In this document: in pieces, positions 12,968 to 48,656 of the stretch | How positions within the stretch are numbered: position 1 is the stretch's first letter | How the letters are laid out: every line of letters starts with the position of its first letter | The notes under the pieces: model-generated | Seen by the model: the letters and a program-made list of their open reading frames with translations, nothing else | Databases searched by the model: none | What the model was told of the DNA's origin: nothing | Position numbers and translations under genes: made by a program | Assembly: GCF_002283555.1 (NCBI RefSeq) | Contig: NZ_MVOI01000006.1 | Coordinates: 824,040-888,039 of the forward strand | Length of the DNA: 64,000 nt | Direction: 5' to 3' | Source: Rubrivirga sp. SAORIC476 | GTDB taxonomy: Bacteria; Bacteroidota; Rhodothermia; Rhodothermales; Rubricoccaceae

Positions 12968-14509
12968 ATGCCGCGCGTCCCCGTTCGTCTCCGTCGTCGG
13001 CTGAGCGCTCTGGCGCTGGCCGCGCTCGCATGGGGCGCGCAGGCCCAGACGGAAGACCTGTCTCCGGTGCACCTGGACCTCGTCCGGCCGCACATTCAGG
13101 CGGGGCGCTGGGTCTGGATGGGCGACAGCTTCGCCGTCCCGACGCGGCGGCGGGTGCCGTTCGCGTCCCTGCTGACGTGGCCGCTGGAGCGGGTCGGGGC
13201 GGTGGCGGTGGGCCCGCAGTCGACGCTCGCGATGGCGACGCCGGTGGACGGCACGGCGCGCTGGATCCGCTCGGAGGACGGCTACGTGCTGGGGCGCGGG
13301 ACGAGCCGGGAGGAGCCGATGGGCGTGCCTGTCTACCGCCTCCTGGAAGCAGATCTTCCGGTCGGCGACACGCGATTCGCGCGACTGATCGTCGACCGCG
13401 AGGCGCTGGCGGACGGCAACGCGGGGGCCGCCGGTCGAGCGCTGTCGGGCGACGCGACGGTTCGCCCGCTGCTGTTCGAGCAGGACGAGGCGGACGCCCG
13501 CGGGACGGTCCGCCTCGGTGAGTCGGCCACGCCCCTCGGCACGCCCGGCTTTCGTCTCGGGCGTCCGCTCGGGCTGGGCTTCGGCTCTCGCCTCGCGTCC
13601 GACCTCCGTGCCGACCTTTCGGCTCCCGGCCTCGCTCACCTGGCCGGAGTCGTGGTGGCCGGGCAGCCCGGTCACACGGCCCAGTTCCTCGCCGACGTGT
13701 CGTGGAGCACTACCGGCTTCGCGACCGACGACGCCCCAGCCCCTCCCGACCGAGTCAAGCAGTTCCGCACGGAGCACTTGGCGAACTACCTCCAGGCGAC
13801 CACGCTCGATCCCGCGCAGCCGTCGGTCGTGGCGTTCTACCTCGCCCCGGAGCCGCGACCGGCCGAGGGCGTCGCCGAGACGGTCCGGGCCGTGGTCGCT
13901 CGGGTCCGGGATGCGTTCCAGAAGGCCGGGCTGCCGCGGCCGGTCGTGCTGCTGGTCCACTCCCACGCGGTCGAGACGGAGAGCGTGGCCCAGGCCGAGA
14001 CCGTCGCGTTCGGGCGCGGCCTCCGCGAGGTCGCGCGGGCGGACCCGGAGGTGGCCTTCGTGTCCCTCTACGCCTCGACCGGAGGCGTGGTGTTCGACGG
14101 GCGACCTGAGGCGGTCGCGTGGCTCCAGCGGGAGGGCTGGGCCGAACTGTCCTACGGCACGCACACCGACGGCCGCGACGGGCCGCTCCGCCTCGTGGCC
14201 GACGAGCGTGGCGCCCTGCTCGACGACCGACGCCTCCACCCGACGGAGGCAGGAGCGGCTTTTTTCTCCGCCGTTCTCTATCAGACGCTGACTGCCGAGT
14301 CCCGTGCCCGGGGTGGGGTCGCGGTCCGGACCGTGCTCTTTCCCAACCCGGCCTTCCGGGGGGCTCGCGTGGCGGGAGCGGGCTCGGACCTGCCGATCTA
14401 CGACATCCTCGGACGGCTCGTCGGGCGGACCGGCGTGGACGGGACCTTCTCGGCGCCCCGGGCAGCCGGGGTGTACATCGTCGGACGGACACCCCTGACA
14501 GTACAGTAG
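12968..14509 (+). CDS. Secreted SGNH-hydrolase-like protein, paralogue 1 of 4 (513 aa)
   Basis: The signal peptide ends near AQAQ (residue 27). The conserved start of the mature protein (DLSPVHLDLVRP) is followed by WVWMGDSFAVP with Ser54 as presumed nucleophile (GDS motif). Further family blocks are the PGHTAQFLADVSW region, DPAQPSVVAFYLAPE, PVVLLVHSHA, VAFVSLYASTGGVVFDGRPE and the C-terminal LHPTEAGAAFF (His424). This order (GDS, strand with Val-Val, second strand, His-Pro) matches an SGNH/GDSL fold, but the block III Asn is not recognisable and the Asp usually three residues before His is not there (an Asp five before is conserved). The last ~55 residues are a short sorting-like tail (FPNP, YDILGRLVG, GVYIVGR). 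Substrate unknown; esterase or deacetylase action on surface glycans is a guess. Confidence 0.7.
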   Translation: MPRVPVRLRRRLSALALAALAWGAQAQTEDLSPVHLDLVRPHIQAGRWVWMGDSFAVPTRRRVPFASLLTWPLERVGAVAVGPQSTLAMATPVDGTARWIRSEDGYVLGRGTSREEPMGVPVYRLLEADLPVGDTRFARLIVDREALADGNAGAAGRALSGDATVRPLLFEQDEADARGTVRLGESATPLGTPGFRLGRPLGLGFGSRLASDLRADLSAPGLAHLAGVVVAGQPGHTAQFLADVSWSTTGFATDDAPAPPDRVKQFRTEHLANYLQATTLDPAQPSVVAFYLAPEPRPAEGVAETVRAVVARVRDAFQKAGLPRPVVLLVHSHAVETESVAQAETVAFGRGLREVARADPEVAFVSLYASTGGVVFDGRPEAVAWLQREGWAELSYGTHTDGRDGPLRLVADERGALLDDRRLHPTEAGAAFFSAVLYQTLTAESRARGGVAVRTVLFPNPAFRGARVAGAGSDLPIYDILGRLVGRTGVDGTFSAPRAAGVYIVGRTPLTVQ

Positions 14510-14580: not shown

Positions 14581-16221
14581 ATGAGCGTGGAGGTGGGTTG
14601 GGTGAGTCGTGATATCTTTTTGGCCTCTCTCCTCAGTGCTCTGGTGTCCCCGTCTGTGAGATTTTCAAAGGGTCGTTATTTTTGTCTAGTGCTCGGGGCC
14701 ATGGTGGGCGCCGCGGCCACGTCCGCTCAGCCTCAGGCCGACCTGTCGCCGGTCCACCTGGACCTGCTCCCGACGCGGGTGCAGACCGGGCGCTGGGTCT
14801 GGATGGGGGACAGCTTCACGGCGCCGTCGCGCGCCCGGGTGCCGTTCGCGTCGCTGCTGACGTGGCCCCTGAACCGTCTCGGCGCCGTCGCGACGGGATC
14901 GCTGGCCCGCATGTCGCGGCTGGTGCCCGGCCCGCTCGGCCGGGAGATCTCCGACGACGACGCGTTCGTCCTCGCCCCGGGCACGCCGCTGGAGTCGACG
15001 ATGGGGCTCCCCGTCTACCGTCTCGTCGAGTGGGACCTGCCGGTGGGCGTCACCGACCTCGGCGACCTCGATGTCTTCCCGACCGAACTCTCGGACGGGC
15101 GCGTTGCGGACCACGGGGGGCTCTTCGGCGGCAACATGACCATCCGCCCGATCCTCTACGCCCAGCCCGGCGCCGAGGCGCGCGGCACGGTCCGCATGGC
15201 GGAGATCGGGAGCGCCGACACGCCGATCCCGCTGGACGGCTTCGCGCTCGGGCCGCCCGCCGCCGTCCGCTCTGATCGCCGCCGGAGCGTCACGGTCACG
15301 GCCGACCTCACCGCGCCGGGCTTCGTCCACCTCGCCGGGATGGTGCTCTCCGGCGCGCCCGGCCACTACGCTCAGTTCCTCGCCGATCGGCGGTGGAGCA
15401 TGTCTGGCTTCGGCGACGACGGCGACCCGACCCCGCCCGACGACATCCAGCGGTTCCGCACGGCGGACCTGGCAGGCTACCTCGCCGCCACCACGCTCGA
15501 CCCCGCGCAGCCGTCGGTGGCGGTGCTCCACCTCGCCCACGAACTCCGCGACCCGGAGGTGCTGCGTCTGCAGGTCGAGGCGGCCGTCGCCCGCGTCCGC
15601 GCGGCGTTCTCGATGGCGGGTCTGCCCACGCCCGTCGTGCTGCTGCTCCACGCGCAGGCTGTCAACGCGCCGACGGTCAACACGGTCGAGGAGAACGAGG
15701 CCGACGGGATCGTGATGCGCGCAGTCGCCCTGGCGGACCCCGGCGTGGCCTTCATCTCGCTCTACGACGTGACCGACGGCGTCGTCTTCGACGGGCGCCC
15801 GGAGGCGCAGGAGTGGCTCGTGGCCAACGGGTACTCCGAGCTGACGTACGGCACCCACCGGGTGGGGCAGGACGGTCCGGTGCGGCTGCTCACCGACCAC
15901 CGGGCGAACCTCCTCGACGAGAACAGCCTCCATCCGACCGAGGCGGGCGCGGCGTTCTTCGCTTACCTGCTCGGCCAGGTGGTGACGGAGTACGCGGTCT
16001 CGGGCCACGTCGGCACTGAGGCGGCGCCGGGCGCGCGCGTCGCGCCGCTGGTTCCGAACCCCGCCCGCCCCGGTGCTCGCGTGCGCGGTGCCGACGCGGG
16101 GGCCCCCATCGTGGATCTGCTGGGGCGCCACCTCGGTGTCGTCGCGGACGACGGGTCGTTCGCTGCTCCTCGCACGGGGGGCGTCTACCTCGTCGGCCGC
16201 ACGCGCCTCGTCGTCCAGTAA
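14581..16221 (+). CDS. Secreted SGNH-hydrolase-like protein, paralogue 2 of 4 (546 aa)
   Basis: It has the same architecture as its neighbour: DLSPVHLDL, WVWMGDSFTAP, GHYAQFLADRRWSM, DPAQPSVAVLHLAHE, PVVLLLHAQA, GVAFISLYDVTDGVVFDGRP, LHPTEAGAAFF and a short tail (VPNPARPG, VDLLGRHLG, GVYLVGR). ATG 14581 has a good purine-rich site (GGGAGG, 6 nt spacing), but it leaves ~45 residues before the mature part. A GTG at 14656 would give a cleaner signal peptide (RFSKGRYFCLVLGAMVG, cut after TSAQ). It is closest to paralogue 3, sharing an APGTPLESTMGLP block. It lies 71 nt after paralogue 1; the leader region is AT-richer than the genes. Confidence 0.7.
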   Translation: MSVEVGWVSRDIFLASLLSALVSPSVRFSKGRYFCLVLGAMVGAAATSAQPQADLSPVHLDLLPTRVQTGRWVWMGDSFTAPSRARVPFASLLTWPLNRLGAVATGSLARMSRLVPGPLGREISDDDAFVLAPGTPLESTMGLPVYRLVEWDLPVGVTDLGDLDVFPTELSDGRVADHGGLFGGNMTIRPILYAQPGAEARGTVRMAEIGSADTPIPLDGFALGPPAAVRSDRRRSVTVTADLTAPGFVHLAGMVLSGAPGHYAQFLADRRWSMSGFGDDGDPTPPDDIQRFRTADLAGYLAATTLDPAQPSVAVLHLAHELRDPEVLRLQVEAAVARVRAAFSMAGLPTPVVLLLHAQAVNAPTVNTVEENEADGIVMRAVALADPGVAFISLYDVTDGVVFDGRPEAQEWLVANGYSELTYGTHRVGQDGPVRLLTDHRANLLDENSLHPTEAGAAFFAYLLGQVVTEYAVSGHVGTEAAPGARVAPLVPNPARPGARVRGADAGAPIVDLLGRHLGVVADDGSFAAPRTGGVYLVGRTRLVVQ

Positions 16222-16306: not shown

Positions 16307-17917
16307 ATGCTCTGCTCTGTCTGGTCTCGCTGTTTCATCGGTTTCGCCCTGCCTCGCCACGTCACGCTCGCCGCGCTCCTCGTGCTCTCGGGAGGAGCCA
16401 CAGCCCAGAGCAACTCCGAGCCACACCCCGACCTGTCGCCGGTCAACCTCCACCTCGTCACGACTCGCATCCAGACCGGCCGGTGGATCTGGGTGGGCGA
16501 CAGCTTCGCGGTGCCGTCGCGCAGCCGAGTGTCGTTCTCGTCACTGGCCACGTGGCCGCTGGAACGGATCGGGGCGGTGACGGTGGGGTCGGGCGCCCGG
16601 ACGGCCCGCTTCGTGCCCGACCCCGAGGTCGGCCGTGAAGTGATCTACGAGGAGGGGTACGTGATCGCGCCGGGGACGCCCCTCGAGTCGACGATGGGGC
16701 TGCCGCTGTACCGCCTCCTGGAGTGGGACCTCCCGGCCGGGCCGACCGACCTGGGCACGCTCGACGTGTTCCGGGCGGAGTTGGACGACAGCCACGCAGC
16801 GGCCCACGGCGGGCTCTTCGTCGGCGGCGCCTCGATCCGGCCGCTGCTCTACGCCCAGCCGGGCGCCGAGGCGCGCGGGGTGCTGCGCATGGCGGAGACG
16901 GAGGCGGCGGAGAGCCCCCTGCCCCTGGAGGGCTTCGCGCTCGGCGAGCCCGCGCCGCTGGCGACCGTCCGCCACTCCGAAGTGTCGGTCACCGCGGACC
17001 TGACGGCGCCGGGCTTCGTCCACCTCGCCGGGTCGGTGCTGAGCGGAGCGCCGGGCCACTACGCTCAGTTCCTCGGCGACGCCTCGTGGAGCTACTGGGG
17101 CTACGCACAAGACGGCGACCCGGCGCTACCGGACTCCGTCAAGCAGTTTCGGACGGCCCACTTCGCGGACTACCTCCAGGCGACCACGCTGGACCTGGCG
17201 CAGCCGACCGTGGTCGCGGTCTACCTCGCCCAGGAGCGGCGCATCATGCCGGTCCTCCAGGAGGTGCTTCAGGGCGTCGTGAACCGCACACGGGCGTCCT
17301 TTCAGCAGGCGGGACTGCCGGAGCCGGTCATCCTGTTCATCCACCCGCACGCCATCGAGACGGTGGTCGTCAACGACGTAGACACGAACACGCGCGCGGC
17401 GGTCGCGATGCGCACCATCGCCCTGAGCGATCCCGGCGTCGCGTTCGTGTCCCTGTACGACGCCACCGACGGGGTCGTCTTCGATGGGCGGCCCGAGGCG
17501 CTGTCCTGGCTCCAGAGCCACGCCCTCGACCGGCTCTCGTTCGGCACCCACGTGGAGGGTCAGGACGGTCCGATCGGCCTGATCGACGAGTACCGGGGCA
17601 ACCTGCTCGACGACAACCGGCTGCACCCGACCCAGGTGGGCGCGGCCTTCTACGCCTACGTCCTCGGCCAGGTGCTGACCGAGTTCGCCGTGTCGGGCAG
17701 CACGAGCACCGCCGACGAGCCCGAGCAGGGACGGGGGGGGAGGCTGGCGCCCAACCCGGCGCGTCCGGGCACGCGCGTGCGCGGTGCGACGGCGGGGACG
17801 CCGGTGGTCGACCTCCTCGGCCGCCATCTCACCGAGGTGGAGGCCGACGGGACGTTCGCCGCGCCAGCGGTGCCTGGCATCTACCTCGTCGGTCGTCAGC
17901 GCCTCGTCGTGGGCTGA
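16307..17917 (+). CDS. Secreted SGNH-hydrolase-like protein, paralogue 3 of 4 (536 aa)
   Basis: The ATG at 16307 gives a signal peptide ending near GGATAQ. The mature part begins HPDLSPVNLHL and has WIWVGDSFAVP (note Val for Met before GDS), GHYAQFLGDASWSYWGY, DLAQPTVVAVYLAQE, PVILFIHPHA, GVAFVSLYDATDGVVFDGRP and LHPTQVGAAFY. The tail is short: APNPARPGTRVRG, VDLLGRHL, GIYLVGRQRLVV. It is strongly similar to paralogue 2 in the 200-residue middle part (AQPGAEARG; APGTPLESTMGLP), so these two probably arose by the most recent duplication. It begins 85 nt after paralogue 2 and is followed by a hairpin at 17943-17961. Confidence 0.7.
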   Translation: MLCSVWSRCFIGFALPRHVTLAALLVLSGGATAQSNSEPHPDLSPVNLHLVTTRIQTGRWIWVGDSFAVPSRSRVSFSSLATWPLERIGAVTVGSGARTARFVPDPEVGREVIYEEGYVIAPGTPLESTMGLPLYRLLEWDLPAGPTDLGTLDVFRAELDDSHAAAHGGLFVGGASIRPLLYAQPGAEARGVLRMAETEAAESPLPLEGFALGEPAPLATVRHSEVSVTADLTAPGFVHLAGSVLSGAPGHYAQFLGDASWSYWGYAQDGDPALPDSVKQFRTAHFADYLQATTLDLAQPTVVAVYLAQERRIMPVLQEVLQGVVNRTRASFQQAGLPEPVILFIHPHAIETVVVNDVDTNTRAAVAMRTIALSDPGVAFVSLYDATDGVVFDGRPEALSWLQSHALDRLSFGTHVEGQDGPIGLIDEYRGNLLDDNRLHPTQVGAAFYAYVLGQVLTEFAVSGSTSTADEPEQGRGGRLAPNPARPGTRVRGATAGTPVVDLLGRHLTEVEADGTFAAPAVPGIYLVGRQRLVVG

Positions 17918-18090: not shown

Positions 18091-19656
18091 ATGCGGCTGC
18101 CAGTGTTTACAAGGGTTTGGGTCCTGATCATGCTGGCTTCTGGAGGTGGGGCTGCACAGACCCTCTCCAATCCTCCGGACCTGTCGCCGGTCGACGTCGA
18201 CCTCGTCCGGCCCCTGATCGCGGAGGGACGCTGGATCTGGATGGGCGACAGCTACGCTGTGCCGTACCGGTTGCGCGTCCCATTCGCGACGCTGGTGACG
18301 TGGCCGCTTTCGCACGTGGGCGCGGTCTCCGTCGGCCCGAAGTCTCCGCTCGGGCGTCAGGTGCCGGCCGAGATTCAGCCGCAGGTCGTGGCCGACGGCA
18401 ACGGCTTCGTGCTGGCCGCCGGGACACCGACGGAGGACCGCATGGGGCTCCCGCTGTACCAGATGCTGGAATGGGACCTCCCGGCAGGCGACAGCGACCT
18501 GGGGAGGATGTACCTGGGCTTCTCCTACCTCCTGGACGGGTACGCGGCGCTCGACGGGACCCCGTTCAATGGACCGACCGAGGCGAGGCCCCTCGTGTAC
18601 ACCCGCCCCGGGGCAGCGAGCCCGAGTCGCCTGCGCTACTCGGACACCTCAGAAACGCCGTCGCCCCGCCTCGTGGGAGACGCCGACGGGTTCGCGCTGG
18701 GACAGGGCACGGCCATCGAGACCTCGCGGGACCGTCTGGTCCCGCTCCGGGCGTCCCTCGACGTGCCCGAGGTGGTCCACCTCGCGGGCACCGTGATCGC
18801 GGGCGAGCCCGGCCACTACGCCCAGTTCCTCGGCGACGAGTCGTGGAGCTACTGGGGGTTCAGTTCCGACGCCGACCCGGTCCCGGACTCGCTGAAGCGG
18901 TTCCGTACCGATGACCTGGCCGGGTACCTCGCCGCGACGACCCTGGACCCGGCGCAGCCGTCGGTGGTCGCCATCCACCTCGCGCACGAGCGTCGCCCGG
19001 AGGCGCTGCTCCGGACCACACTGGAGCGCATGGTGGCCCAGACCCGCGACGCCTTCGACCGGTCAGGTCTCGGCGCGCCCGTGATCCTGTTCGTCCACCC
19101 CCAGGCGATCGACACGGCCATCATCGACACGGCCGAAAAGAATGAGCGGAACGGAGTCGTGATGCGCGAGATGGCGCTCGCTGACGACCGGATCGCATTC
19201 GTGTCGCTCTACGATGCCACCGACGGGGTCGTGTTCGACGGGCGCCCGGAGGCGCGCGCCTGGCTGGAAGCTTCCCCCTACGCATCCTTCTGCTTCGGAT
19301 CGCGGTGCCGCGGCCGCGCCGTCGAACTCCTCGCCGAGTCCGGGGGCAACCTGCTGGACGCGAGGCGGCTCCACACGACCGAGCACGGCGCCCTGTTCTT
19401 CTCCGCCCTGCTCGGCGAACTCCTCACCGGCCGACCGGTGGCCTGCGACTGCCCGACCGAACCGCCGCCAGCGAGTGGCCTGCTGTTCCCCAATCCCATC
19501 CGCACCGGCGACTGGGTGTCGGGCGCGCTCCCCGACGAGCCGGTCTACGACGCCCGGGGTCGCCGCGTCGGCCGGACCGACCCTGCCGGGAGGTTCGTCG
19601 CGCCGTCGGTGCCGGGCGTCTACTTCGTCGGCGGCGCCCGGCTGGTGGTGCAGTAG
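18091..19656 (+). CDS. Secreted SGNH-hydrolase-like protein, paralogue 4 of 4 (521 aa)
   Basis: The signal peptide (MRLPVFTRVWVLIMLASGGG, cut near AAQ) is followed by DLSPVDVDLVRPLI and WIWMGDSYAVP with Ser54 at the same residue number as in paralogue 1. Family blocks: GHYAQFLGDESWSYWGF, DPAQPSVVAIHLAHE, PVILFVHPQA, IAFVSLYDATDGVVFDGRP. It is the most divergent member: the C-terminal His block is LHTTEHGALFF (Pro lost), a CFGSRCRGR insert adds two cysteines, and the sorting tail starts after a CDCPTEPPPASG linker. It lies 173 nt after paralogue 3, preceded by AT-richer sequence and a hairpin, so it may have its own promoter. It converges on the HAD gene with 3 nt between the stops. Confidence 0.7.
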   Translation: MRLPVFTRVWVLIMLASGGGAAQTLSNPPDLSPVDVDLVRPLIAEGRWIWMGDSYAVPYRLRVPFATLVTWPLSHVGAVSVGPKSPLGRQVPAEIQPQVVADGNGFVLAAGTPTEDRMGLPLYQMLEWDLPAGDSDLGRMYLGFSYLLDGYAALDGTPFNGPTEARPLVYTRPGAASPSRLRYSDTSETPSPRLVGDADGFALGQGTAIETSRDRLVPLRASLDVPEVVHLAGTVIAGEPGHYAQFLGDESWSYWGFSSDADPVPDSLKRFRTDDLAGYLAATTLDPAQPSVVAIHLAHERRPEALLRTTLERMVAQTRDAFDRSGLGAPVILFVHPQAIDTAIIDTAEKNERNGVVMREMALADDRIAFVSLYDATDGVVFDGRPEARAWLEASPYASFCFGSRCRGRAVELLAESGGNLLDARRLHTTEHGALFFSALLGELLTGRPVACDCPTEPPPASGLLFPNPIRTGDWVSGALPDEPVYDARGRRVGRTDPAGRFVAPSVPGVYFVGGARLVVQ

Positions 19657-24573: not shown

Positions 24574-27500
24574 TCAGGCGGTGCCCTGGCCGGCCGGGAT
24601 CGACGAGAGGGCCGCAGGGACAGTGGGCTCGGCGTCGGAGGGGAGGACGGCGTCGAGGCGGTCGATCATGGCGCGCGCCTCGGCGTAGAGCGGCAGGAAC
24701 GCGCGCACGGCGTCGGCGAGGAGGCCGCGGTCGGCGGCGTGCTGCGTGGCGACGCAGTGGGCGTCGAGGGCGGCGGCGTCCAGCAGGCCCGCGACCGACT
24801 TGAGCGTGTGCGCGGTGCGCCCGGCGGTGCGGAGGTCGTCGGCGCGGAGGGCCGTCTTGATGGCGTCGAGGCCGCTGCCGATCTCGTGTCGCGCGTCGGC
24901 GAGCAGGTCGAGGAAGAGCGACGGCGAGCCCGCGGCCATCTCGGCGAGTGTGGGGAAGGCCGCTGCGGCCCGGTCGAGGCCGGTCTCGGCGGCCGTCGGC
25001 TCCGGAGCCTGGAGCCGGAGGATCGGCGCGGGGAGGACGGGTGCGGCGGCAGTGAGCGTGTCCAGGGTGCGGGCCAGCGCGTCCCGGTCGATGGGCTTGC
25101 CTAGGAAGCCGTCCATGCCCGCGGCGATGCACGCCTCGCGGCGGTCGGCCGTCACGTCGGCCGTGATGGCGATGATGTGCGGCTGGGGGAGGCCGGCGGC
25201 GTCGCGGACCGCGCGGGTCGCGTCGAGGCCGTCCATGCGCGGCATCCGGAGGTCCATCAGGACGACGTCGAAGGGGCGCCCGGCATCGGCGGCCTGCTGG
25301 AGCGCGGGCAGGACCTCGTCGCCATCGGCCACCATCTCGGGCCGGTAGCCGAGGCGGCCCAGCGACAGGCCCGTCACACGCTGGTTGACGGGGTTGTCCT
25401 CGGCGACGAGGATCCGGAGGGACGGCGACGTCTCGGGCATCGGGGCGGCAGGGGAGAGGGCGGGGGTGTCGAGGCGTGGCGCACCGGCCGTCGGGGAGTC
25501 GGAGGCGGCGGGGGAGGGCGCCTCGGCGATGGCGTCGAGGACGACGCGGCGCAGCAGGGCGGGCTTGATCGGCTTGTGGAGCGACGCCATCAGTAGGCCC
25601 GGCGGCGTGGCGGGCGACTCGTGGATCGAGGACAGCAGGACGAGCGGGAGGTCCGGGCGGCGCATCCGGAGCGATGTCGCGAGCGTGACCCCGTCCACGT
25701 CGGGCATCTGGTAGTCGAGGATGGCGACCGCGAACAGGGCCCCCCTGTCCACGGTGGCCAGGGCCTCGGCGGCCGAGGGGACGGCGGTCGGGATGAAGCC
25801 CCACATGCGCGCCTGGACCTCCAGGATGCGGCGGTTGGTGGCGTTGTCGTCGACGATCAGCATCCCCTGGCCGGCGAGTGCCGCCAGGGCTGCGCTCCCG
25901 TGGTCGGGCGCGGGATCGGTCCCCGGAACGACGTCGGCCGGGATCACCACGTGGAAGGTGGTCCCCTCGTCGGGCACGCTCTCGACCCAGATCCGCCCGC
26001 CCATGGCGTCGACGAGCCGGTGGGAGATGCTCAGCCCGAGGCCGGTGCCGCCATACCGCCGCGTGGTCGACGCGTCGGCCTGGGTGAAGGGGTCGAACAG
26101 CGCCTCGACGCGCTCGGGCGCGATGCCGATGCCCGTGTCGCGGACGGTCAGGTGGAGGCCGGACGTGCAGTCGTCGAGGCGGCGGAGGTGCGCTGGGACG
26201 GCGTCCGGGTCGCAGGGGGCGACGCTGAGCACAACCTCGCCCGTGTCGGTGAACTTGACCGCGTTGGCGAGCAGGTTGACGAGCACCTGCCGCAGCCGGG
26301 TCACGTCCCCGACGACGCGGGTGGCGACGGTGGGGGCGATCTCGTAGGCCAGGTCAAGGCCCTTCGCCGAGGCCCGGTACGCGACCAGGTCGAGCGCGTC
26401 CTCGGCGCACCCCCGCACGTCGAACGGCCGCGCCTCCAACTCGATCATGCCCGCCTCGATCTTCGAGAAGTCCAGCACGTCGTTGATGACGCCCATCAGC
26501 GCCTCGCCGGACGAGCGGACGACGCTCGCGAACTCCCGCTGCTCCTCGGTCAGCGGGGTATCCAGCAGGTGCCCGGTCATCCCGATGACGCCGTTGAGGG
26601 GCGTCCGGATCTCGTGGCTCATGTTGGCCAGGAACTCGCTCTTGGCGAGGCTGGCCTGCTCGGCCGCCTCCTTGGCGGCGACGAGGGCCTCGTGGCTCTG
26701 CCGGACCTCGGTCACGTCCTGGGCGACGATGACGAGGCCGCCTCGGTGGTCTCCGCACCCGGGCAGCTTGGCGGCGGAGATGCGGACCGGGATGCGCGTG
26801 CCGTCGGCGTGCTCGAAGCTGGAGTCGAGGCCGGTCACCGTCTCGTTCCCGGCGATGGCCGCCCCGAAGGCGAACGCCTCCTCCGGCTGGTTCGCCATCA
26901 GCACGCGTGCATCGGCTCCGACGAGCTGGTCGACGGGCACGCCCACCATCGCGGCGCCTGCCCGGTTGACGCGCTGCACGTAGCCCTCGCCGTCGACGAC
27001 ACAGAGGGCGTCGGGGATGGACTCGATGATGGTGTCGAGGTGGGCGCGGGAGACCGTGCTGGTGGCGAGCGCGTCGATGGTCGCGTCCAGCGTCCGCGCG
27101 AGTTGCCCGATCTCGTCGGACGAGGTGTCGTTGATGCGGGCGTCGAGGATGCCCTGCCCGATGGCCTCGGCGCCCGCGCTGATACGCTTCAGCCGCCGAC
27201 CCAGCGTCTGCGCGATCCCGACGCCCAGCAGCAACGCCAGCACGAACGGGACGACGAGCAGGGCGAGCCCGACGGTGCGGACCGGCCGGAGCGTCTCGCG
27301 TGCGTACCCGAGGTTGACGGCGGCGGGCTCGGACGTGCGAGCGAGCATCTGCGTCAGCAGGCGGCGCGTCTCGGCGCCTGCGGCCGACGAGTCGGCCTGG
27401 AGCGCGCCGAGCGTGTCGCGAAGGTCGGCGGCCGTCGCTTCGGCCGCGCGGTCGGCTCTCCAGGCAGCGCGCTCGGCCGCTGTCTCGGCGGCGATCTCGG

Positions 27501-27585
27501 TGGCCTTCACGACGACGCCTCCCATGGCCGACACCACGATGGCGGCGCCGCAGAAGGCGAGCATCAACTTGGGAAACAATTTCAT
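24574..27585 (-). CDS. Hybrid sensor histidine kinase: TM-HAMP-PAS-HK-REC-REC-HPt (1003 aa)
   Basis: The start MKLFPKLMLAFCGAA opens the first TM helix. A periplasmic helical part (about 25-115), a second TM (about 118-140) and a HAMP segment lead to a PAS domain (about 195-300). The HisKA H-box FLANMSHEIRTPLNG has His324. The HATPase domain has NLLANAVKF and GGTGLGLSIS. REC1 carries its phospho-acceptor in ILDYQMPDVDG (Asp624). REC2 has VLMDLRMPRMDG (Asp778). The HPt domain has AHTLKSVAG (His926). It thus contains a whole phosphorelay up to a final HPt. The output regulator is not adjacent. It is divergent from the M28 peptidase gene (155 bp). Confidence 0.95.
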   Translation of the reverse strand: MKLFPKLMLAFCGAAIVVSAMGGVVVKATEIAAETAAERAAWRADRAAEATAADLRDTLGALQADSSAAGAETRRLLTQMLARTSEPAAVNLGYARETLRPVRTVGLALLVVPFVLALLLGVGIAQTLGRRLKRISAGAEAIGQGILDARINDTSSDEIGQLARTLDATIDALATSTVSRAHLDTIIESIPDALCVVDGEGYVQRVNRAGAAMVGVPVDQLVGADARVLMANQPEEAFAFGAAIAGNETVTGLDSSFEHADGTRIPVRISAAKLPGCGDHRGGLVIVAQDVTEVRQSHEALVAAKEAAEQASLAKSEFLANMSHEIRTPLNGVIGMTGHLLDTPLTEEQREFASVVRSSGEALMGVINDVLDFSKIEAGMIELEARPFDVRGCAEDALDLVAYRASAKGLDLAYEIAPTVATRVVGDVTRLRQVLVNLLANAVKFTDTGEVVLSVAPCDPDAVPAHLRRLDDCTSGLHLTVRDTGIGIAPERVEALFDPFTQADASTTRRYGGTGLGLSISHRLVDAMGGRIWVESVPDEGTTFHVVIPADVVPGTDPAPDHGSAALAALAGQGMLIVDDNATNRRILEVQARMWGFIPTAVPSAAEALATVDRGALFAVAILDYQMPDVDGVTLATSLRMRRPDLPLVLLSSIHESPATPPGLLMASLHKPIKPALLRRVVLDAIAEAPSPAASDSPTAGAPRLDTPALSPAAPMPETSPSLRILVAEDNPVNQRVTGLSLGRLGYRPEMVADGDEVLPALQQAADAGRPFDVVLMDLRMPRMDGLDATRAVRDAAGLPQPHIIAITADVTADRREACIAAGMDGFLGKPIDRDALARTLDTLTAAAPVLPAPILRLQAPEPTAAETGLDRAAAAFPTLAEMAAGSPSLFLDLLADARHEIGSGLDAIKTALRADDLRTAGRTAHTLKSVAGLLDAAALDAHCVATQHAADRGLLADAVRAFLPLYAEARAMIDRLDAVLPSDAEPTVPAALSSIPAGQGTA

Positions 27586-27740
27586 CGTGCAGGAGATGTC
27601 GTAACACGGGGCCGCGTCGGCCGGGCCGTGAGAGGGGACAGAGGCCCCCCGCCAGAGGGATCGTGGGGCGATCCCTGAGGAGTCCAAGAGCGTGCCGCAC
27701 GCGTACCATGCGCTCCCCCCGATCCTGCCTCGTGCCATCC

Positions 27741-41783: not shown

Positions 41784-43004
41784 ATGGTCGTCCTCGTCCT
41801 CAACGCCGGGTCCTCGTCGCTCAAGATCGACCTCATCGATGCCGAGGCCGGGCAGACGCTCGCGGCCGGACAGGTCGAGCGCATCGGCGCGGTGTCGTCG
41901 CTCGCCTCGTTCCGCCTCGGTGACGCCAAGGCCGAGCGCGTCTCGCTCCAGGCGCCCGACCACACGACCGCCCTCGGCCACCTCCTCGACCGGATGCGCG
42001 AGGCGGACGGGCCAGACCAGGACATCCTGCCGCCCATCGAGGCGGTCGGACACCGCGTCGTCCATGGCGGCGAGCAGTTCGCCGAGTCGGCGCTGGTCGA
42101 CGGCGAGGTGATCGACGCCATCCGCGATGCCTTCGACCTGGCGCCGCTCCACAACCCGGCCAACCTGCAGGGCATCCGGGCCGCCCAGAAGGCCTTCCCC
42201 GACGTGCCCCACGTGGCGGTCTTCGACACGGCCTTCCACCAGACCATCCCGCCGGAGGCCTACCTGTACGCGCTCCCGAACCGCCTCTACCGGCGCCACA
42301 AGATCCGGCGCTACGGCTTCCACGGGACGAGCCACTACTACGTCTCCCGCCGCCTCGTAGACCTGGTCGGCCTCGATCTCCAGGCGAGCCGCGTCGTCAC
42401 GATCCACCTCGGCAACGGCTGCTCGATGGCCGCCATCCGTGACGGCCGGAGCGTCGACACGTCGATGGGGATGACGCCACTGGAAGGCCTCGTCATGGGC
42501 ACGCGCTCCGGCGACCTCGACCCGTCGATCGTGTTCGAGATCGCCGAGAAGGAGGACGCGCCGCTCTCGGAGGTCCACACGCTCCTCAACCGCTACTCGG
42601 GCCTGCTGGGCCTGAGCGGCTACGCGGCCGACATGCGCGACCTGCTCGCCGAGGCGGCCGACGGCGACGTGCGCTGCCAGCAGGCCATCGACGTGTTCTG
42701 CTACCGCGTCAAGAGCTACCTCGGCCGCTACCTCGCCGTGCTCGGCGGCATCGACGCGGTCGCCTTCACGGCCGGCATCGGGACGTTCGCGGCACCCGTG
42801 CGCGCCCAGATCCTGGCCGGGCTGGACGGACTCGGCATCACTGTGGACCCGGCCGCCAACGCCGCTGCCGACGGCACCGAGGCCCGCATCACGACCGACG
42901 CGAGCACGATCCCGGTCTGGGTGGTGCCCACCAACGAGGAACTCGTCATCGCGCAGGACACGCAGAAGCTGGCTCGCGCCGCTCGCCAGTCGCCGTTCGT
43001 GTGA
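41784..43004 (+). CDS. ackA: Acetate kinase (406 aa)
   Basis: ASKHA-fold kinase. The signature blocks are VLNAGSSSLKI at the N-terminus, VGHRVVHGGEQF, FDTAFHQTIP, HLGNGCSMAAI, MTPLEGLVMGTRSGDLDP and FTAGIGTFA. It converts acetate and ATP to acetyl phosphate reversibly in the cytoplasm. Length is typical. No pta gene is adjacent, which is unusual for many bacteria but not rare. The start ATG at 41784 precedes the first beta strand directly. Confidence 0.96.
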   Translation: MVVLVLNAGSSSLKIDLIDAEAGQTLAAGQVERIGAVSSLASFRLGDAKAERVSLQAPDHTTALGHLLDRMREADGPDQDILPPIEAVGHRVVHGGEQFAESALVDGEVIDAIRDAFDLAPLHNPANLQGIRAAQKAFPDVPHVAVFDTAFHQTIPPEAYLYALPNRLYRRHKIRRYGFHGTSHYYVSRRLVDLVGLDLQASRVVTIHLGNGCSMAAIRDGRSVDTSMGMTPLEGLVMGTRSGDLDPSIVFEIAEKEDAPLSEVHTLLNRYSGLLGLSGYAADMRDLLAEAADGDVRCQQAIDVFCYRVKSYLGRYLAVLGGIDAVAFTAGIGTFAAPVRAQILAGLDGLGITVDPAANAAADGTEARITTDASTIPVWVVPTNEELVIAQDTQKLARAARQSPFV

Positions 43005-43078
43005 GGCGCCCCGTAAGCCCGCGCTCCGCCTCGCCGTCTACCGGCTGATCGCCGAGGCCTCCACACACCGTCGCACCC

Positions 43079-43858
43079 GTGCCTGCTCGCTCCATCGTCA
43101 TCTCCTTTACCCTGGCTCTCGTGCTGGTCGCCTGCGAGACGTCTGCTCCCGCACCCCAGGGCGACGCCGAGGCGCTGGCGCTGCTCGACCGCGCCCGCCA
43201 GCACCATGGCTCGGCGACGCTGGAGGGGGCGGAAGTCCGGTTCACGTTCCGCGGCGTCCCCTTCACGGCCCGTCGCGACGGCGGCGCGTACCGCTACGCG
43301 CGGACGCTGACCGACAACCTCGGGCGGACCGTCGAGGAGGTCGTCGACAACGAGGGCACGCACCGGTTCATCAACGGCACCGAGGTGCCGCTCGATGCCG
43401 CCGAGGCGGCGCGGGTCCACACGGCCGTCAACTCGGTCGTCTACTTCGCGCTGCTGCCCGCCCCCCTGGCCGATGCCGCCGTTCGCGCCCGGTCGCTCGG
43501 GCCAGACTCCGTCGGCGGGCAGCCGTACGACCGGGTCGAGGTGACCTTCGCCCGCGAGGGGGGCGGCGTCGACTTCGAGGACCGCTACGTCTACTGGCTC
43601 CGCCCGGCCGACGCCCAGATCGGCTACTACGCGTACACCTACGAACCGTCGCCGGGCGACACGTCGCGCACGGAGACCGGCACGCGCTTCCGGGTGCCCA
43701 TCGGGGAGGTTCGCGCCGAGGGCGTCCTCTTCCAGAACTGGCGCAACGTCACCGCCGACTCGCTGGCCGACATCGCGGACTTCGGCGCGGCCTACGACGA
43801 CGGGCGGACGTTCGAGGTCTCGGAGGTCGTGCTGGACGACGTCCGCGTCGCGCGCTGA
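43079..43858 (+). CDS. DUF6503-type lipoprotein (259 aa)
   Basis: An SPII signal ends at LALVLVAC (Cys20). The mature protein is beta-rich, like LolA/LppX-type lipid-binding folds: VRFTFRGVPFTARRDGG, LGRTVEEVVDNEG, VNSVVYFALLPAPL, GGVDFEDRYVYWLRPAD, IGYYAYTYEPS. The order matches DUF6503 proteins of Bacteroidota; function unknown. It starts with GTG at 43079, the first start before the signal peptide. Confidence 0.78.
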   Translation: MPARSIVISFTLALVLVACETSAPAPQGDAEALALLDRARQHHGSATLEGAEVRFTFRGVPFTARRDGGAYRYARTLTDNLGRTVEEVVDNEGTHRFINGTEVPLDAAEAARVHTAVNSVVYFALLPAPLADAAVRARSLGPDSVGGQPYDRVEVTFAREGGGVDFEDRYVYWLRPADAQIGYYAYTYEPSPGDTSRTETGTRFRVPIGEVRAEGVLFQNWRNVTADSLADIADFGAAYDDGRTFEVSEVVLDDVRVAR

Positions 43859-43978
43859 GGCCGGGCTGGGAGGCGGCGTCCGGTGCGGCCTGTGTGAGTA
43901 GTATGCGCCCCGCCGATACGGCGCGCAGCCACGGACGGCCTGCCGACGCGCCAATCGGCCTTGTTTTCCCCCGGTCGC

Positions 43979-46234
43979 ATGCCCAACCCCCCCGACGCTC
44001 CTCGCTTCCTGTTCGAGGGGCAGGACGCCTTCGACGCCCTCTCGGCCTCGCTCGCCGACACGGTCCTCATCCTCGAGCCCGACGGCGTCGTGTCGTACGC
44101 CGCGCCCGGCGTGGTGGCCATCCTGGGGATCACCCCGCAGGTGTTGGAAGGTCAGCCGCTGCTGGCGTTCGTTCACCCGGAGGACCGGGTCCACGAGGAG
44201 GCGGGCGGCTTCTGGCAGGCGCCGCTGCCGTTCGAGCGCGAGTTTCGGATGCGCGGAGTCGGCGGAGACTGGGTCTGGGTGCGTGTGCTCTCCGGGGCGA
44301 CGGACCGCTCCGGCGAGCGGCTCGCCTCGGCCGATCGCATCCTCGGAGACCGCACGCTGCTGCTCCTGCGCGACCGCCGCTCCGATGCCCAGGTGCGCGA
44401 TGCCGACGACCTGCTGCACCGCGCCTTCGACGCGGTCAACAACCTCGTCGTCGTGACCGACATGCGGCTGCCGGGCAACCCGCTCGTGATGGTGAACCAG
44501 AACTTCGTCGACGCGACCGGCTACCCGCGCGAGGAGATCATCGGGCGGAACTGCCGGTTCCTCCAGGTCCGCCCGGACGGCACCCGCGACAACACGGACG
44601 ACGGGCAGGCCGAGGCGCTCGATGAGATCCGCCGGGCCATCGCGAGTGGGGCCTCGACCCACGCGTTGCTGAGGAACTACCGCAAGGACGGCACACGGTT
44701 CTACAACCGCCTCTACCTGACGCCCATCCGCACCGCCGCAGGGGAGCTGACCCACTACGTCGGCGTGCAGAACGACGTGACCGCCGAGATCGAGCAGCGC
44801 GACGAGGCCGAGCGCCGGCGTCGGTTGCTGAGGGCGTTTTTCGACAGCGCGCCGTTCCTGATGGGCGTCGTCGAGGACCGGGACGGGGAGGTCCGACACC
44901 AGACGGCCAACGAGGCCGCCCTCGACCTCTTCCGCTCCGCCGGGGCGCAGGCCGATCGCATCGAGGGCGCCTCCCTCACCGCCCTCGGCTTCTCCGCCGC
45001 CGAGGCCGACCTCTGGGAGCGGCACGTCCGGACGTGCGCCAAGACCGGCGAGCCCTCGCACTTCCGGACGGTCTTCCCGTGGGGCGCCCATCCCGATGCC
45101 CCGGACGTCCGGCTCTTGGACGTGGTCGTGAACACGGCCGAGCGGGGCGAGCCGCCGCTGTTCTCGTACGTCGCCGAGGACGTGACCGAGCGGCGCCGGT
45201 CGGACACGGAGCGGCGGCTGCTGGCAGCGGCGGTCGAGCAGGCCGCCGAGCCCATCGTGGTGACGGGCATCGGGGTCGACGAGCCCGGCCCGCGCATCCT
45301 GTACGCCAACGAGGCGCACGCGCGCACGTTCGGCTACACCGTCCCCGAGATCATCGGCCGGTCGCCGCGCATGTTCCAGGGGCCCAAGACCGACCGGGCC
45401 GTGCTGGATCGCGTCCGCGCGCGGCTGGAGGCGGGCGAGCCGGTCCAGGCCGAGGCGATCAACTACCGCAAGGACGGTAGCGAGTTCGTGCTCCAGTGGG
45501 AGATCGCGCCGGTCCGCAACGACGCCGGCGAGGTGGTCAACTGGGTCGGCACGCAACGCGACGTCACCGAGCGGCGGCAGCTGGAGCGCGAGATTCTGGA
45601 GGTGGCCGCCCGCGAGCAGGAGCGCATGGCGCGCGACCTCCACGACGGCCTCGGGCAGGTGCTCACTGGGGCCGCCTTCCGCCTCCAGGCCCTCTACTAC
45701 GCGCTCGACGGGACCGACCAGGCGGACCTCGCGGCGGACGCGCTCCGCACCCGCCAGCTGGTGGAGGGCGCGCTCGAGCAGGCCCGCGCCATCGCCCGCG
45801 GCCTGTTCCCCATCAACATCGAGCCGGACGAGATCCACGACGCGCTCGCCCGCCTCGCCGCCGACGCCGCCATGGCGTTCGACATCACCTGCTCGTTCGA
45901 GGGCGACGCGACCATCACCGCCCCGACGCGCGAGCACGCGGCCCACCTCTACCGGATCGCGCAGGAGGCACTCGCCAACGCGGCTCGCCACGGACGCGCC
46001 AAGACGATCGAGGTCGGGCTCACCCGCGCGGGCGACCACGCGATGCTCACCGTCCGCGACGACGGCATCGGCATCTCGGACACCGCGCTGGCAGGCGGAG
46101 AGGGCCTCGGCCTGCGCACGATGCGGTATCGCGCCGATCGCGTGGGCGGCGAGTTCGAGGTGCGCCACCGGGAGGGCGGGGGCACCGTCGTCGCGGTCAC
46201 CTTCGAGCCTGCTCAGGCCGAAGAAGAGGAGTAG
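43979..46234 (+). CDS. PAS/LOV sensor histidine kinase, NarX-type (751 aa)
   Basis: Domains: PAS-1 (about 18-130); a LOV domain (about 145-275) with GRNCRFLQ, where Cys192 is in the position of the photo-active cysteine, plus the FMN-contacting Asn residues in LRNYRKDGTRFYN and Gln in YVGVQNDVT; a third PAS (about 280-405); a fourth, LOV-like PAS lacking the Cys (GRSPRMFQGPKTD; about 415-530). The kinase is of the HisKA_3 type with RDLHDGLGQ (His555) and the HATPase boxes QEALANAARHG and GEGLGLRTM. No TM helix is present, so it is a soluble sensor. The LOV motif has a 5-6 residue insert after FLQ. No response regulator is adjacent. Confidence 0.92.
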   Translation: MPNPPDAPRFLFEGQDAFDALSASLADTVLILEPDGVVSYAAPGVVAILGITPQVLEGQPLLAFVHPEDRVHEEAGGFWQAPLPFEREFRMRGVGGDWVWVRVLSGATDRSGERLASADRILGDRTLLLLRDRRSDAQVRDADDLLHRAFDAVNNLVVVTDMRLPGNPLVMVNQNFVDATGYPREEIIGRNCRFLQVRPDGTRDNTDDGQAEALDEIRRAIASGASTHALLRNYRKDGTRFYNRLYLTPIRTAAGELTHYVGVQNDVTAEIEQRDEAERRRRLLRAFFDSAPFLMGVVEDRDGEVRHQTANEAALDLFRSAGAQADRIEGASLTALGFSAAEADLWERHVRTCAKTGEPSHFRTVFPWGAHPDAPDVRLLDVVVNTAERGEPPLFSYVAEDVTERRRSDTERRLLAAAVEQAAEPIVVTGIGVDEPGPRILYANEAHARTFGYTVPEIIGRSPRMFQGPKTDRAVLDRVRARLEAGEPVQAEAINYRKDGSEFVLQWEIAPVRNDAGEVVNWVGTQRDVTERRQLEREILEVAAREQERMARDLHDGLGQVLTGAAFRLQALYYALDGTDQADLAADALRTRQLVEGALEQARAIARGLFPINIEPDEIHDALARLAADAAMAFDITCSFEGDATITAPTREHAAHLYRIAQEALANAARHGRAKTIEVGLTRAGDHAMLTVRDDGIGISDTALAGGEGLGLRTMRYRADRVGGEFEVRHREGGGTVVAVTFEPAQAEEEE

Positions 46235-46309
46235 AGGCCCGGCGCGGGGACCGGCCCGCGGGTCACCGCGTAGCTTCCGAAAGCGGTTCCAGTCTCCCCC
46301 TCGCTCCTC

Positions 46310-47677
46310 ATGTCTGCTCCCCTTCGCATCGCTTCCGGCCAGGGCTTCTGGGGCGACCTCCAGCGCGCCCCCATCGACCAGGCTCGCCTCGGTCCCATCG
46401 ACGTGCTCGTCATGGACTACCTCGCCGAGGTGACCATGTCGATCCTGCAGAAGCAGAAGCTGCGCGACCCGTCGAAGGGCTACGCCCGCGACTTCGTGGA
46501 GGTGGTGACGGAGCTGGCGCCCGACATCGTGGAGAAGGGCTTCAAGATCATCTCCAACGCGGGGGGCGTGAACCCCGTCGCCTGTGCCGAGGCCATCGTG
46601 GAGGGCGCGCGGGCGCGCGGCGCGACCGGCCTCAAGGTGGCCGTCGTCACCGGCGACGACCTGCTGGAGCGCCTCGACGACCTCCTCGCGCGCGGCGTCG
46701 AGCTGAAGCACATGGAGACCGGGCAGCGGCTCGCGGAGGTCCGCGACCAGATCGTGAGCGCCAACGCCTACCTCGGCGCCCAGCCCATCGCCGAGGCGCT
46801 CGCGATGGGCGCCGACGTGGTGGTCACCGGGCGGACCACCGACACCGGCCTCACGCTCGCCCCGCTCGTCGACCGCTTCGGCTGGGACTGGACCGACTGG
46901 GACAAGATGGCCGCGGGTACCGTCGCCGGCCACATCCTGGAGTGCGGCGCGCAGTCGTCCGGCGGCAACTTCACCGACTGGCGGGCCGTGCCAGACATGG
47001 CGCGCATCGGCTTCCCCATCGCCGAGGTCTCGGCCGACGGCACGTTCGTGGTTACGAAGCACGACGGCACCGGCGGGCTCGTCAGCCGCGGCACGGTCGC
47101 CGAGCAGCTCCTCTACGAAATCGGCGACCCGACGGACTACATCACGCCGGACGTGGTGGCGGACTTCACCAGCATCCAGCTGGAGGACGAGGGCGACGAC
47201 CGGGTTCTCGTGAGCGGCATCCGGGGCGCCGAGGACACCGAGTTCCTCAAGGTCTCGGCCGCCTACGCCGACGGCTGGAAGGCGACCTCGACGCTCGTCT
47301 ACGCGTGGCCGGAGGCCGCCGCGAAGGCCCGCGCCGCGGCGCAGATCCTCAAGGACCGCCTCGACGCGCTCGGCCTGGAGTTCGAGGAGTACCGCGCTGA
47401 GATCATCGGGCTGAACGCGCTTTCGGAGACCGAGTCGGTCGACGCGGTCGCCGAGGCGGACCTGGACGAGGTGCAGCTTCGGGTCTCGGTGCGCGGGCAG
47501 GACAAGGCCGCCGTCGAGCAGTTCGGGCGCGAGATCGCGCCGCTCATCCTGACCGGCCCCAGCGCTGTGACGGGCTTCGCGGGTGGGCGTCCGCGCCCGA
47601 GCGAGGTCGTCGCCTACTGGCCCGCGCTGATTCCGAAGAGCGAGGTCCAGACGGAGGTCCGGCTGCTGGAGGTCTGA
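46310..47677 (+). CDS. Acyclic terpene utilisation AtuA-family protein (455 aa)
   Basis: Recognised by the AtuA/DUF1446 pattern: RIASGQGFWGD, GPIDVLVMDYLAEVTMSIL, IISNAGGVNPVACAEAI, KVAVVTGDDLLERL, SANAYLGAQPIAEAL and MGADVVVTGRTTDTGLTLAP, then a GGNFTDW stretch. In Pseudomonas the atu locus handles geranyl/citronellyl compounds, but the biochemical role of AtuA is unclear, and no other atu genes are near. It is likely a cytoplasmic enzyme with hydroxy-acid or CoA-linked substrates; only the family is sure. Confidence 0.85.
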   Translation: MSAPLRIASGQGFWGDLQRAPIDQARLGPIDVLVMDYLAEVTMSILQKQKLRDPSKGYARDFVEVVTELAPDIVEKGFKIISNAGGVNPVACAEAIVEGARARGATGLKVAVVTGDDLLERLDDLLARGVELKHMETGQRLAEVRDQIVSANAYLGAQPIAEALAMGADVVVTGRTTDTGLTLAPLVDRFGWDWTDWDKMAAGTVAGHILECGAQSSGGNFTDWRAVPDMARIGFPIAEVSADGTFVVTKHDGTGGLVSRGTVAEQLLYEIGDPTDYITPDVVADFTSIQLEDEGDDRVLVSGIRGAEDTEFLKVSAAYADGWKATSTLVYAWPEAAAKARAAAQILKDRLDALGLEFEEYRAEIIGLNALSETESVDAVAEADLDEVQLRVSVRGQDKAAVEQFGREIAPLILTGPSAVTGFAGGRPRPSEVVAYWPALIPKSEVQTEVRLLEV

Positions 47678-47900: not shown

Positions 47901-48656
47901 ATGTCCGCGCCCCTGGCCGTCCTCCTCGTCGAAGACGACCCGACCGCCCAGTCCATCGCGCTCTCCATGCTTCGGCACCTCGGCATCGAGGCCGACGTGG
48001 CGTCCGACGGGGCACAGGGGGTTCGGGCGGCGGCGGAGCGGGCGTACGACCTGATCCTGATGGACATCCAGATGCCCGTGATGGACGGCGTCGAGGCACT
48101 GCGTGCGATCCGGTCCGCCTCGGGCGGCGCTTCGCCTCGCATCATCGCGGTGACCGAGCACGCGCAGTCCGGGCTGGAGGCGCGCATGGTGGGAATCGGG
48201 TTCGACGGGGTCGCCCCCAAGCCTTTCACGGTCCCGGTTCTCCAACAGGCCGTGAGCCCGCTGCCAAAGGCGACCCCGACCGCGGCGCCCGCGACCTCCA
48301 GCGACGAGGGCGTCGAGCGACTCCTGCGCGACATCCGCGCCCACGTCCGCGGCTTGCTGGGGGAGGACGACGAGGCGTTCGTGGCCGACCTCGTCGACAC
48401 GTTCGCCGACTCGACTCGAAAGGCCCTGCACCTCCTGGACCCCATCGTGGCGGACCGCGACTTCGACGCGCTGGCCCGCATGGCCCATGCGATCAAGGGG
48501 AGCGCTGCCAACGTGGGCCTGGCGACGCTCGCCGACGCGTGGTGCCGCATCGAGGAGGCCTCGCGCAACGTCGACGCCACCGTCTTCGCCGAGCCCCTCG
48601 CTGCGGCTCTCACTCAGACCCGCCTGGCCATCGGCCTCGTGACGGTCGAGGCGTGA
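47901..48656 (+). CDS. Response regulator receiver fused to an HPt domain (251 aa)
   Basis: REC domain at 5-125: acid pair VLLVEDDPTAQ, phospho-acceptor Asp55 in LILMDIQMPVMDG, Thr in VTEHA and Lys in APKPF. The HPt domain (about 145-245) has RMAHAIKGSAANVG with His196. There is no output domain, so the protein can only relay phosphate, for instance between a hybrid kinase and a regulator elsewhere. ATG 47901 starts the REC fold; in-frame upstream starts add only an unstructured leader. The 223-bp gap upstream holds nothing I recognise. Confidence 0.9.
   Translation: MSAPLAVLLVEDDPTAQSIALSMLRHLGIEADVASDGAQGVRAAAERAYDLILMDIQMPVMDGVEALRAIRSASGGASPRIIAVTEHAQSGLEARMVGIGFDGVAPKPFTVPVLQQAVSPLPKATPTAAPATSSDEGVERLLRDIRAHVRGLLGEDDEAFVADLVDTFADSTRKALHLLDPIVADRDFDALARMAHAIKGSAANVGLATLADAWCRIEEASRNVDATVFAEPLAAALTQTRLAIGLVTVEA

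Follow-up and report, generated by a model that had tools for sequence, protein, structure and literature searches.

The window, a stretch of 64,000 nucleotides from Rubrivirga sp. SAORIC476, contains a histidine kinase gene on the + strand at positions 43979 to 46234. The gene is called LOV-HK1 here. Judging from its translation, Pfam matches and an alignment of orthologs, it encodes a protein of 751 amino acids with the domain order PAS-LOV-PAS-PAS-HisKA_3-HATPase_c. Six orthologs were aligned (the window, L065, L068, L076, L067, and L069), and the ATG start at 43979 is consistent with L065, L068, and L076. The N-terminal PAS domain lies at about 44021 to 44353 on the + strand, as are all of the following domains; its limits were estimated from the ortholog alignment, since Pfam marks PAS stretches in the protein without the limits of this one. 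The LOV domain (residues 145-281; 44411 to 44821) was located by a stretch matching the NCBIfam model YtvA_fam, which is below that model's whole-protein cut-off, and by a structure model. Then come a third PAS-like domain (approximately 44831 to 45193, estimated from the ortholog alignment) and a fourth PAS domain (residues ~414-534; 45218 to 45580, from Pfam and the ortholog alignment). The HisKA_3 phospho-acceptor domain (residues 546-610; 45614 to 45808) has His555 at 45641-45643, and the HATPase_c domain (residues 654-743) spans 45938 to 46207. The two domains scored 43.4 bits (cut-off 24) and 62.1 bits (cut-off 26.4) in Pfam, and the H-box, found in the ortholog alignment, is DLHDGLGQ or ELHDGLGQ in 6/6 orthologs. 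Thus, the gene encodes a histidine kinase, as the initial annotation had proposed.

A simple gene caller chose an antisense ORF at 42728-47062 instead. This ORF was rejected as a GC-rich artefact, because it is the + frame that has homologs, domains, and third-position substitutions. The same error occurred in L066 and in part of L065. The window gene and its G006 ortholog differ at 130, 105, and 249 sites of codon positions 1, 2, and 3, respectively, over 746 codons. This substitution pattern indicates that the LOV-HK1 coding frame is real. The highest 19-residue Kyte-Doolittle mean of the protein is 1.5 and there is no strongly hydrophobic stretch. Therefore, no membrane helix is expected, and it is reasonable to call the protein soluble.

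In the window, the gene order is acetate kinase (41784 to 43004, start estimated), DUF6503 (43079 to 43858), LOV-HK1, AtuA family (46310 to 47677), REC-HPt (47901 to 48656), and ABC transporter. All of the genes with coordinates are on the + strand and were assigned by Pfam, the acetate kinase gene also by neighbourhood comparison and the REC-HPt gene by alignment. The neighbours outside the window were mostly identified from sequence starts without a domain scan, and with this basis the following orders were obtained. L068 matches the window in gene order from acetate kinase through LOV-HK1 and AtuA to REC-HPt, with a DUF6503-like gene in second place, and continues with other genes instead of the ABC transporter. 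In L065, acetate kinase is followed by LOV-HK1, REC-HPt, and ABC transporter, and the last three of these also appear on L066, a short contig; the gene caller hides some genes in both. In L076, from family f9, acetate kinase comes first, then the LOV kinase, AtuA, and the ABC transporter, with no REC-HPt called between the last two. In L067 and L069, acetate kinase lies 3′ of the LOV kinase. Thus, no response regulator gene is immediately adjacent to LOV-HK1, as had been noted before, but a REC-HPt gene is located two genes downstream. It lies downstream of LOV-HK1 in all four genus g1 neighbourhoods examined (the window, L065, L066, and L068), and all four copies keep the HPt His motif. The phospho-acceptor Asp of the receiver is kept in the window copy and in L068, and is replaced in L065:2623-3327 and L066:6621-7328. 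Elsewhere in the window, four tandem genes on the + strand between 12968 and 19656 (12968-14509, 14581-16221, 16307-17917, and 18091-19656) look like genes for related secreted proteins; the starts of three of them share DLSPV, and all four lack Pfam matches at E 0.001. A large hybrid kinase gene with HAMP, PAS, HisKA, HATPase, two receiver domains, and HPt is found on the - strand at 24574-27738.

The second sensor domain of LOV-HK1 has the motif GRNCRFLQ, including Asn191, Cys192, Arg193, and Gln196, and further has Arg218, Asn233, Asn243, and Gln264. The Cys192 codon (TGC) at 44552-44554 specifies the predicted flavin-adduct residue. Cys192, Arg193, Arg218, Asn233, Asn243, and Gln264 are invariant in 6/6 aligned orthologs. 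The roles of these residues are presumably those generally known for LOV domains. The LOV motif is therefore complete, as the initial annotation stated, and at the sequence level LOV-HK1 has what is required of a photoactive LOV domain. It had also been claimed that a later PAS domain repeats the pattern without the Cys. This agrees with the fourth PAS domain (GRSPRMFQGPKTD in the window), which is LOV-like; 6/6 orthologs lack the Cys there, and the same six have Leu at the position of the second Asn.

The LOV domain has an insert in the E'alpha-Falpha loop. The loop (residues 197-207; 44567 to 44599 on the + strand), defined from the coil of the structure model, lengths, and alignment, holds most of the nine-residue insert, while the remainder may lengthen the start of Falpha. 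The distance from FLQ to NYRKDG is 36 residues in the window. Lengths were compared in 107 Cys-bearing LOV rows, namely the window, the class-level loci L031-L040 and L042-L064, the genome-collection loci L079-L158, and seven loci missed by the pattern, with near-duplicates included (the row of the class-level locus L054, for one, is identical to that of L155, a Gracilimonas record in Balneolaceae). The distance was 27 residues in 89 rows, 30 in two, 31 in one, 32 in eight, 36 in five, and 38 in two. Thus, the short insert after FLQ is indeed unusual. The 16 rows of at least 31 residues come from 15 genes, spread over 13 genomes, and from L079, which was counted as a duplicate because its row is identical to that of G184. 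These 15 genes have inserts of 4-11 residues, and all belong to the order of the window (Rhodothermales; family codes f1, f9, and f12). Among the loci measured in the best 80 of 591 confirmed loci of the genome-collection scan, L079 alone had an insert of at least four residues; the largest inserts outside the window's order in these 80 were three residues long, in L112 (Marinobacter) and L133 (Shackletoniella). In a phylum sample of 395 genomes taken evenly, 124 had a match, and the best 30 loci gave 27 measurable rows. Twenty-three of these had 27 residues, and the four longer ones came from already-known genomes. The long E'alpha-Falpha loop is an exception among the LOV rows measured. The inserted stretch is frequently PDGTRD or a near variant, and differs in sequence as well as in length among the relatives. 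The Cys is kept in all 15 aligned insert-bearing sequences, the window included; the pattern with which they were initially read accepted any residue at this position. In L042, L043, and L048, the Falpha Arg matching R218, which I take to be a flavin-phosphate contact, is replaced by Ala, and this might accompany a changed chromophore contact. A literature search of titles and abstract starts revealed no insert of this kind in a bacterial LOV domain, although the LOV diversity study of Glantz et al. 2016 may mention some. No LOV study in this bacterial group was named in the titles retrieved.

A structure model of the LOV domain was made from an alignment of the window and 37 loci (mean pLDDT 92.5, pTM 0.83). 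The model confidently predicts a PAS/LOV fold for the second sensor domain. In it, residues 56-66 (197-207 of the protein) form a coil between the E'alpha helix carrying the Cys (51-55) and the Falpha helix (67-82). The loop is the least confident block, with a mean pLDDT of 70 over model residues 61-70. The best structural neighbour was 9vf7 (LOV domain of Meiothermus ruber Mrub_1259; Z 20.8), and other matches included 6ph2 (Z 19.4), 5svv (ZEITLUPE; Z 19.0), and 4gcz (Z 18.9). Within the best 60 of 141 rows, the 58-residue segment around the loop aligned with ZEITLUPE 58:58 without gaps, with Vivid over 60 residues, and with Envoy over 55 residues, while bacterial LOV domains aligned over 49 residues. 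LOV-HK1 resembles the known LOV histidine kinases of bacteria (Brucella LOV-HK, Meiothermus Mrub_1259, and the engineered YF1) in having a LOV domain upstream of the kinase and, in the model, the same fold, but the bacterial LOV domains among these 60 rows have no insert. In addition, the kinase of LOV-HK1 is of the HisKA_3 type and two PAS domains separate it from the LOV domain. The HisKA_3 and HATPase_c domains are shared with NarQ/NarX/UhpB-type kinases, to whose models there are partial matches below the cut-offs. Unlike those kinases, LOV-HK1 has a PAS/LOV input without membrane helices and no adjoining gene for a NarL-type regulator.

The insert has the same place and length as the nine-residue E'alpha-Falpha insert of ZEITLUPE, FKF1, and LKP2, although the sequence similarity of the loops is small. 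The QFF motif of the ZEITLUPE family, given as Q154-F155-F156 in PMC5370183, is absent; LOV-HK1 has Gln264-Asn265-Asp266 instead. The F-box and Kelch domains are also absent, since Pfam finds only PAS, kinase, and ATPase domains. Without the QFF motif and a ZEITLUPE effector, LOV-HK1 stands outside the ZEITLUPE family, and the ZEITLUPE-like loop is probably convergent. The FAD-type fungal LOV proteins Vivid and White Collar-1 also have an extended E'alpha-Falpha loop, but with another effector and with 11 extra residues compared to nine in LOV-HK1. The E-F loop of plant and fungal clock photoreceptors is tied to FAD use and photocycle speed (PMC6378743, PMC5370183); the 11-residue loop of Vivid serves the FAD adenosine, and FKF1 without its loop recovers faster (PMC6378743). 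By analogy with ZEITLUPE and Vivid, the insert of LOV-HK1 would lie next to the flavin's phosphate end. ZEITLUPE itself binds FMN, so that the insert proves neither FAD use nor slow recovery.

A tree of 61 LOV rows was made with the loop columns left out. One group of 20 rows, with a support of 88/84 (not starred), contains all 16 insert rows; four rows without the insert (L036, L039, L040, and L055) are nested in it, and two changes are thus required. These four are short kinases with HisKA_3 directly after the LOV domain (Pfam on L040 and L055). However, a single insert clade was not rejected by the AU test (p 0.383). The insert may have been gained once and lost once, or its bearers may form a single clade. 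In f12, the insert LOV domain is on HisKA-HATPase-receiver hybrids (4/4 scanned, of six genes), and in f1 and f9 it is on HisKA_3 kinases (8/8 scanned, of nine genes). Therefore, the sensor has moved between output modules. Kinases with and without the insert coexist in G006 and G007.

The genome encodes a second insert-bearing LOV kinase, LOV-HK2 (L038; L070 9152-10816, G000:C3:1148151-1149815). LOV-HK2 and a phytoene desaturase gene, crtI (TIGR02734, 595 bits; cut-off 238), are divergently oriented neighbours. The same divergent pair exists in G006 (L078; 538 bits against the same cut-off). In G007 (L252), the LOV-HK2 counterpart (L041) is in two pieces, and the crtI gene from which it diverges shares 86% identity with the G000 one. 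This broken copy, from a 750-contig draft, lacks about 26 residues holding the Cys motif and was left out of the 15 insert genes. In summary, LOV-HK2 lies beside crtI in 3/3 genomes where it was found, all of one genus. A crtI neighbourhood is a typical context of light protection, and the pairing is the best clue to function, suggesting light control of carotenoids. A search of the same genome with the rhodopsin profile PF01036 gave no match, but neither did the control anywhere, so that a rhodopsin gene may still be present.

Which response regulator may be the partner of LOV-HK1? HisKA_3 kinases usually pair with NarL-type regulators, and LOV-HK1 is separated by 365 kb from the closest GerE match of its contig. 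LOV-HK1 had 29 matches in its own genome; five mainly-PAS rows, one of them the LOV part of LOV-HK2, were dropped and 24 were kept. A GerE domain is encoded within 1.3 kb of 18 of the 24 kinase matches, and both LOV kinases are among the other six (two-sided Fisher 0.054). Conversely, three of 20 GerE matches lie more than 2.5 kb from any such kinase match, and among these three are the two REC-GerE regulators RR1 and RR2. RR1 was found at an identity of at least 66% in all six genomes of the family with LOV-HK1 and in none of the three without it (one-sided Fisher 0.012). When f9 was added and all LOV-HisKA_3 kinases were counted, RR1 was present in 8/9 genomes with a kinase and 1/3 without (p 0.13), with a lower threshold of 52% set after the list had been seen, related genomes, and G001-G003 only 88% complete. 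The f9 genomes G170, G171, and G172 have RR1 at 52-55%; G171 has LOV-HK1 and G172 a short LOV kinase, while the only listed profile match of G170 is a PAS domain without the Cys. In G001 (88% complete), a genome with a LOV kinase, no RR1 ortholog was seen. The HisKA_3 H-box pattern is absent from the 4.6-13 kb around RR1 in 9/9 genomes, and one ATPase-like pattern lies about 5.8 kb from RR1 in L251. Thus, the orphan NarL-type regulator RR1 is a candidate partner of LOV-HK1. RR2 (G000:C6:502500-503144) fits less well, because its matches of at least 73% identity are confined to genus g1.

It is proposed, with a probability of about 80%, that LOV-HK1 is a cytoplasmic blue-light histidine kinase. 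The domain order, the residues, the loop length and its position in the predicted model, the conservation, and the gene context were observed directly; from these I infer the flavin, the photocycle, the direction of the kinase response, the partner, and the role of the loop. The second sensor domain would bind flavin, and blue light would induce a thioether bond between Cys192 and flavin C4a. Protonation of N5 would then flip Gln264. The change may be relayed via the Jalpha helix, the two further PAS domains, and coiled-coil linkers to the HisKA_3 dimer, altering the autophosphorylation of His555 and the phosphotransfer to a NarL-type regulator encoded elsewhere. PMC6798134 describes a LOV kinase mechanism and names histidine kinases as the commonest effectors of LOV receptors in prokaryotes; for the E-F loop, a mechanism is outlined in PMC5370183 and PMC6378743. 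With two PAS domains between it and the LOV domain, the kinase is not necessarily controlled by light. By the same analogy with the clock photoreceptors, the nine-residue insert most likely tunes the chromophore choice or the adduct lifetime. The low confidence of the loop in the model and its variable length and sequence weaken the case for a precise shared function.

Other explanations were considered. The REC-HPt protein encoded two genes downstream might read out LOV-HK1 in a phosphorelay, which would fit its recurrence in the four g1 neighbourhoods with the HPt His motif kept. However, two of these four copies (L065 and L066) lack the receiver Asp, and the f9 locus L076 has no such gene call in the interval from AtuA to the ABC transporter. 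The usual pairing of HisKA_3 kinases with NarL-type regulators, and the GerE domains near 18 of the 24 kinase matches, also argue against this relay, which is thus unlikely. It is quite unlikely that the LOV flavin reports redox state via its semiquinone and that light is incidental. According to PMC4682037, LOV receptors lacking the Cys can still signal by flavin photoreduction. The other PAS domains, including the Cys-less fourth one, could sense redox or ligands. Nevertheless, the Cys is kept throughout the insert-bearing sequences, even though the first pattern left this residue free, and the LOV-HK2 paralog adjoins crtI with its light-protection context. A degenerate sensor, whose pocket is disturbed by the insert and whose domain is just a dimerisation or ligand-binding PAS module, is highly improbable. 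The variation of the insert in length and sequence, and the Ala in place of the R218-position Arg in three relatives (L042, L043, and L048), would be in line with degeneration, but all of the checked flavin-contact residues are kept in LOV-HK1, and ZEITLUPE, with an equal segment length, is photoactive according to PMC5370183.

A blue-light LOV histidine kinase itself is ordinary. What is new is a class of LOV domains with a loop of ZEITLUPE length; it has so far been found in a single order, its effectors vary, and one paralog is linked to carotenoids. It is a tentative and rather doubtful idea that these domains form a class resembling ZEITLUPE and Vivid that evolved independently in a bacterial lineage, in which the E-F loop would house the adenine end of FAD or otherwise set a slow photocycle, with the HisKA_3 kinases serving light-regulated carotenoid synthesis and the hybrid kinases a second pathway. 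The natural bacterial series, from 0 to 11 extra residues, would allow a direct test of the role of the E-F loop in FAD use and photocycle speed. The crtI-linked LOV-HK2 would offer a concrete, visible phenotype for a LOV kinase, that is, pigment in the light versus the dark.
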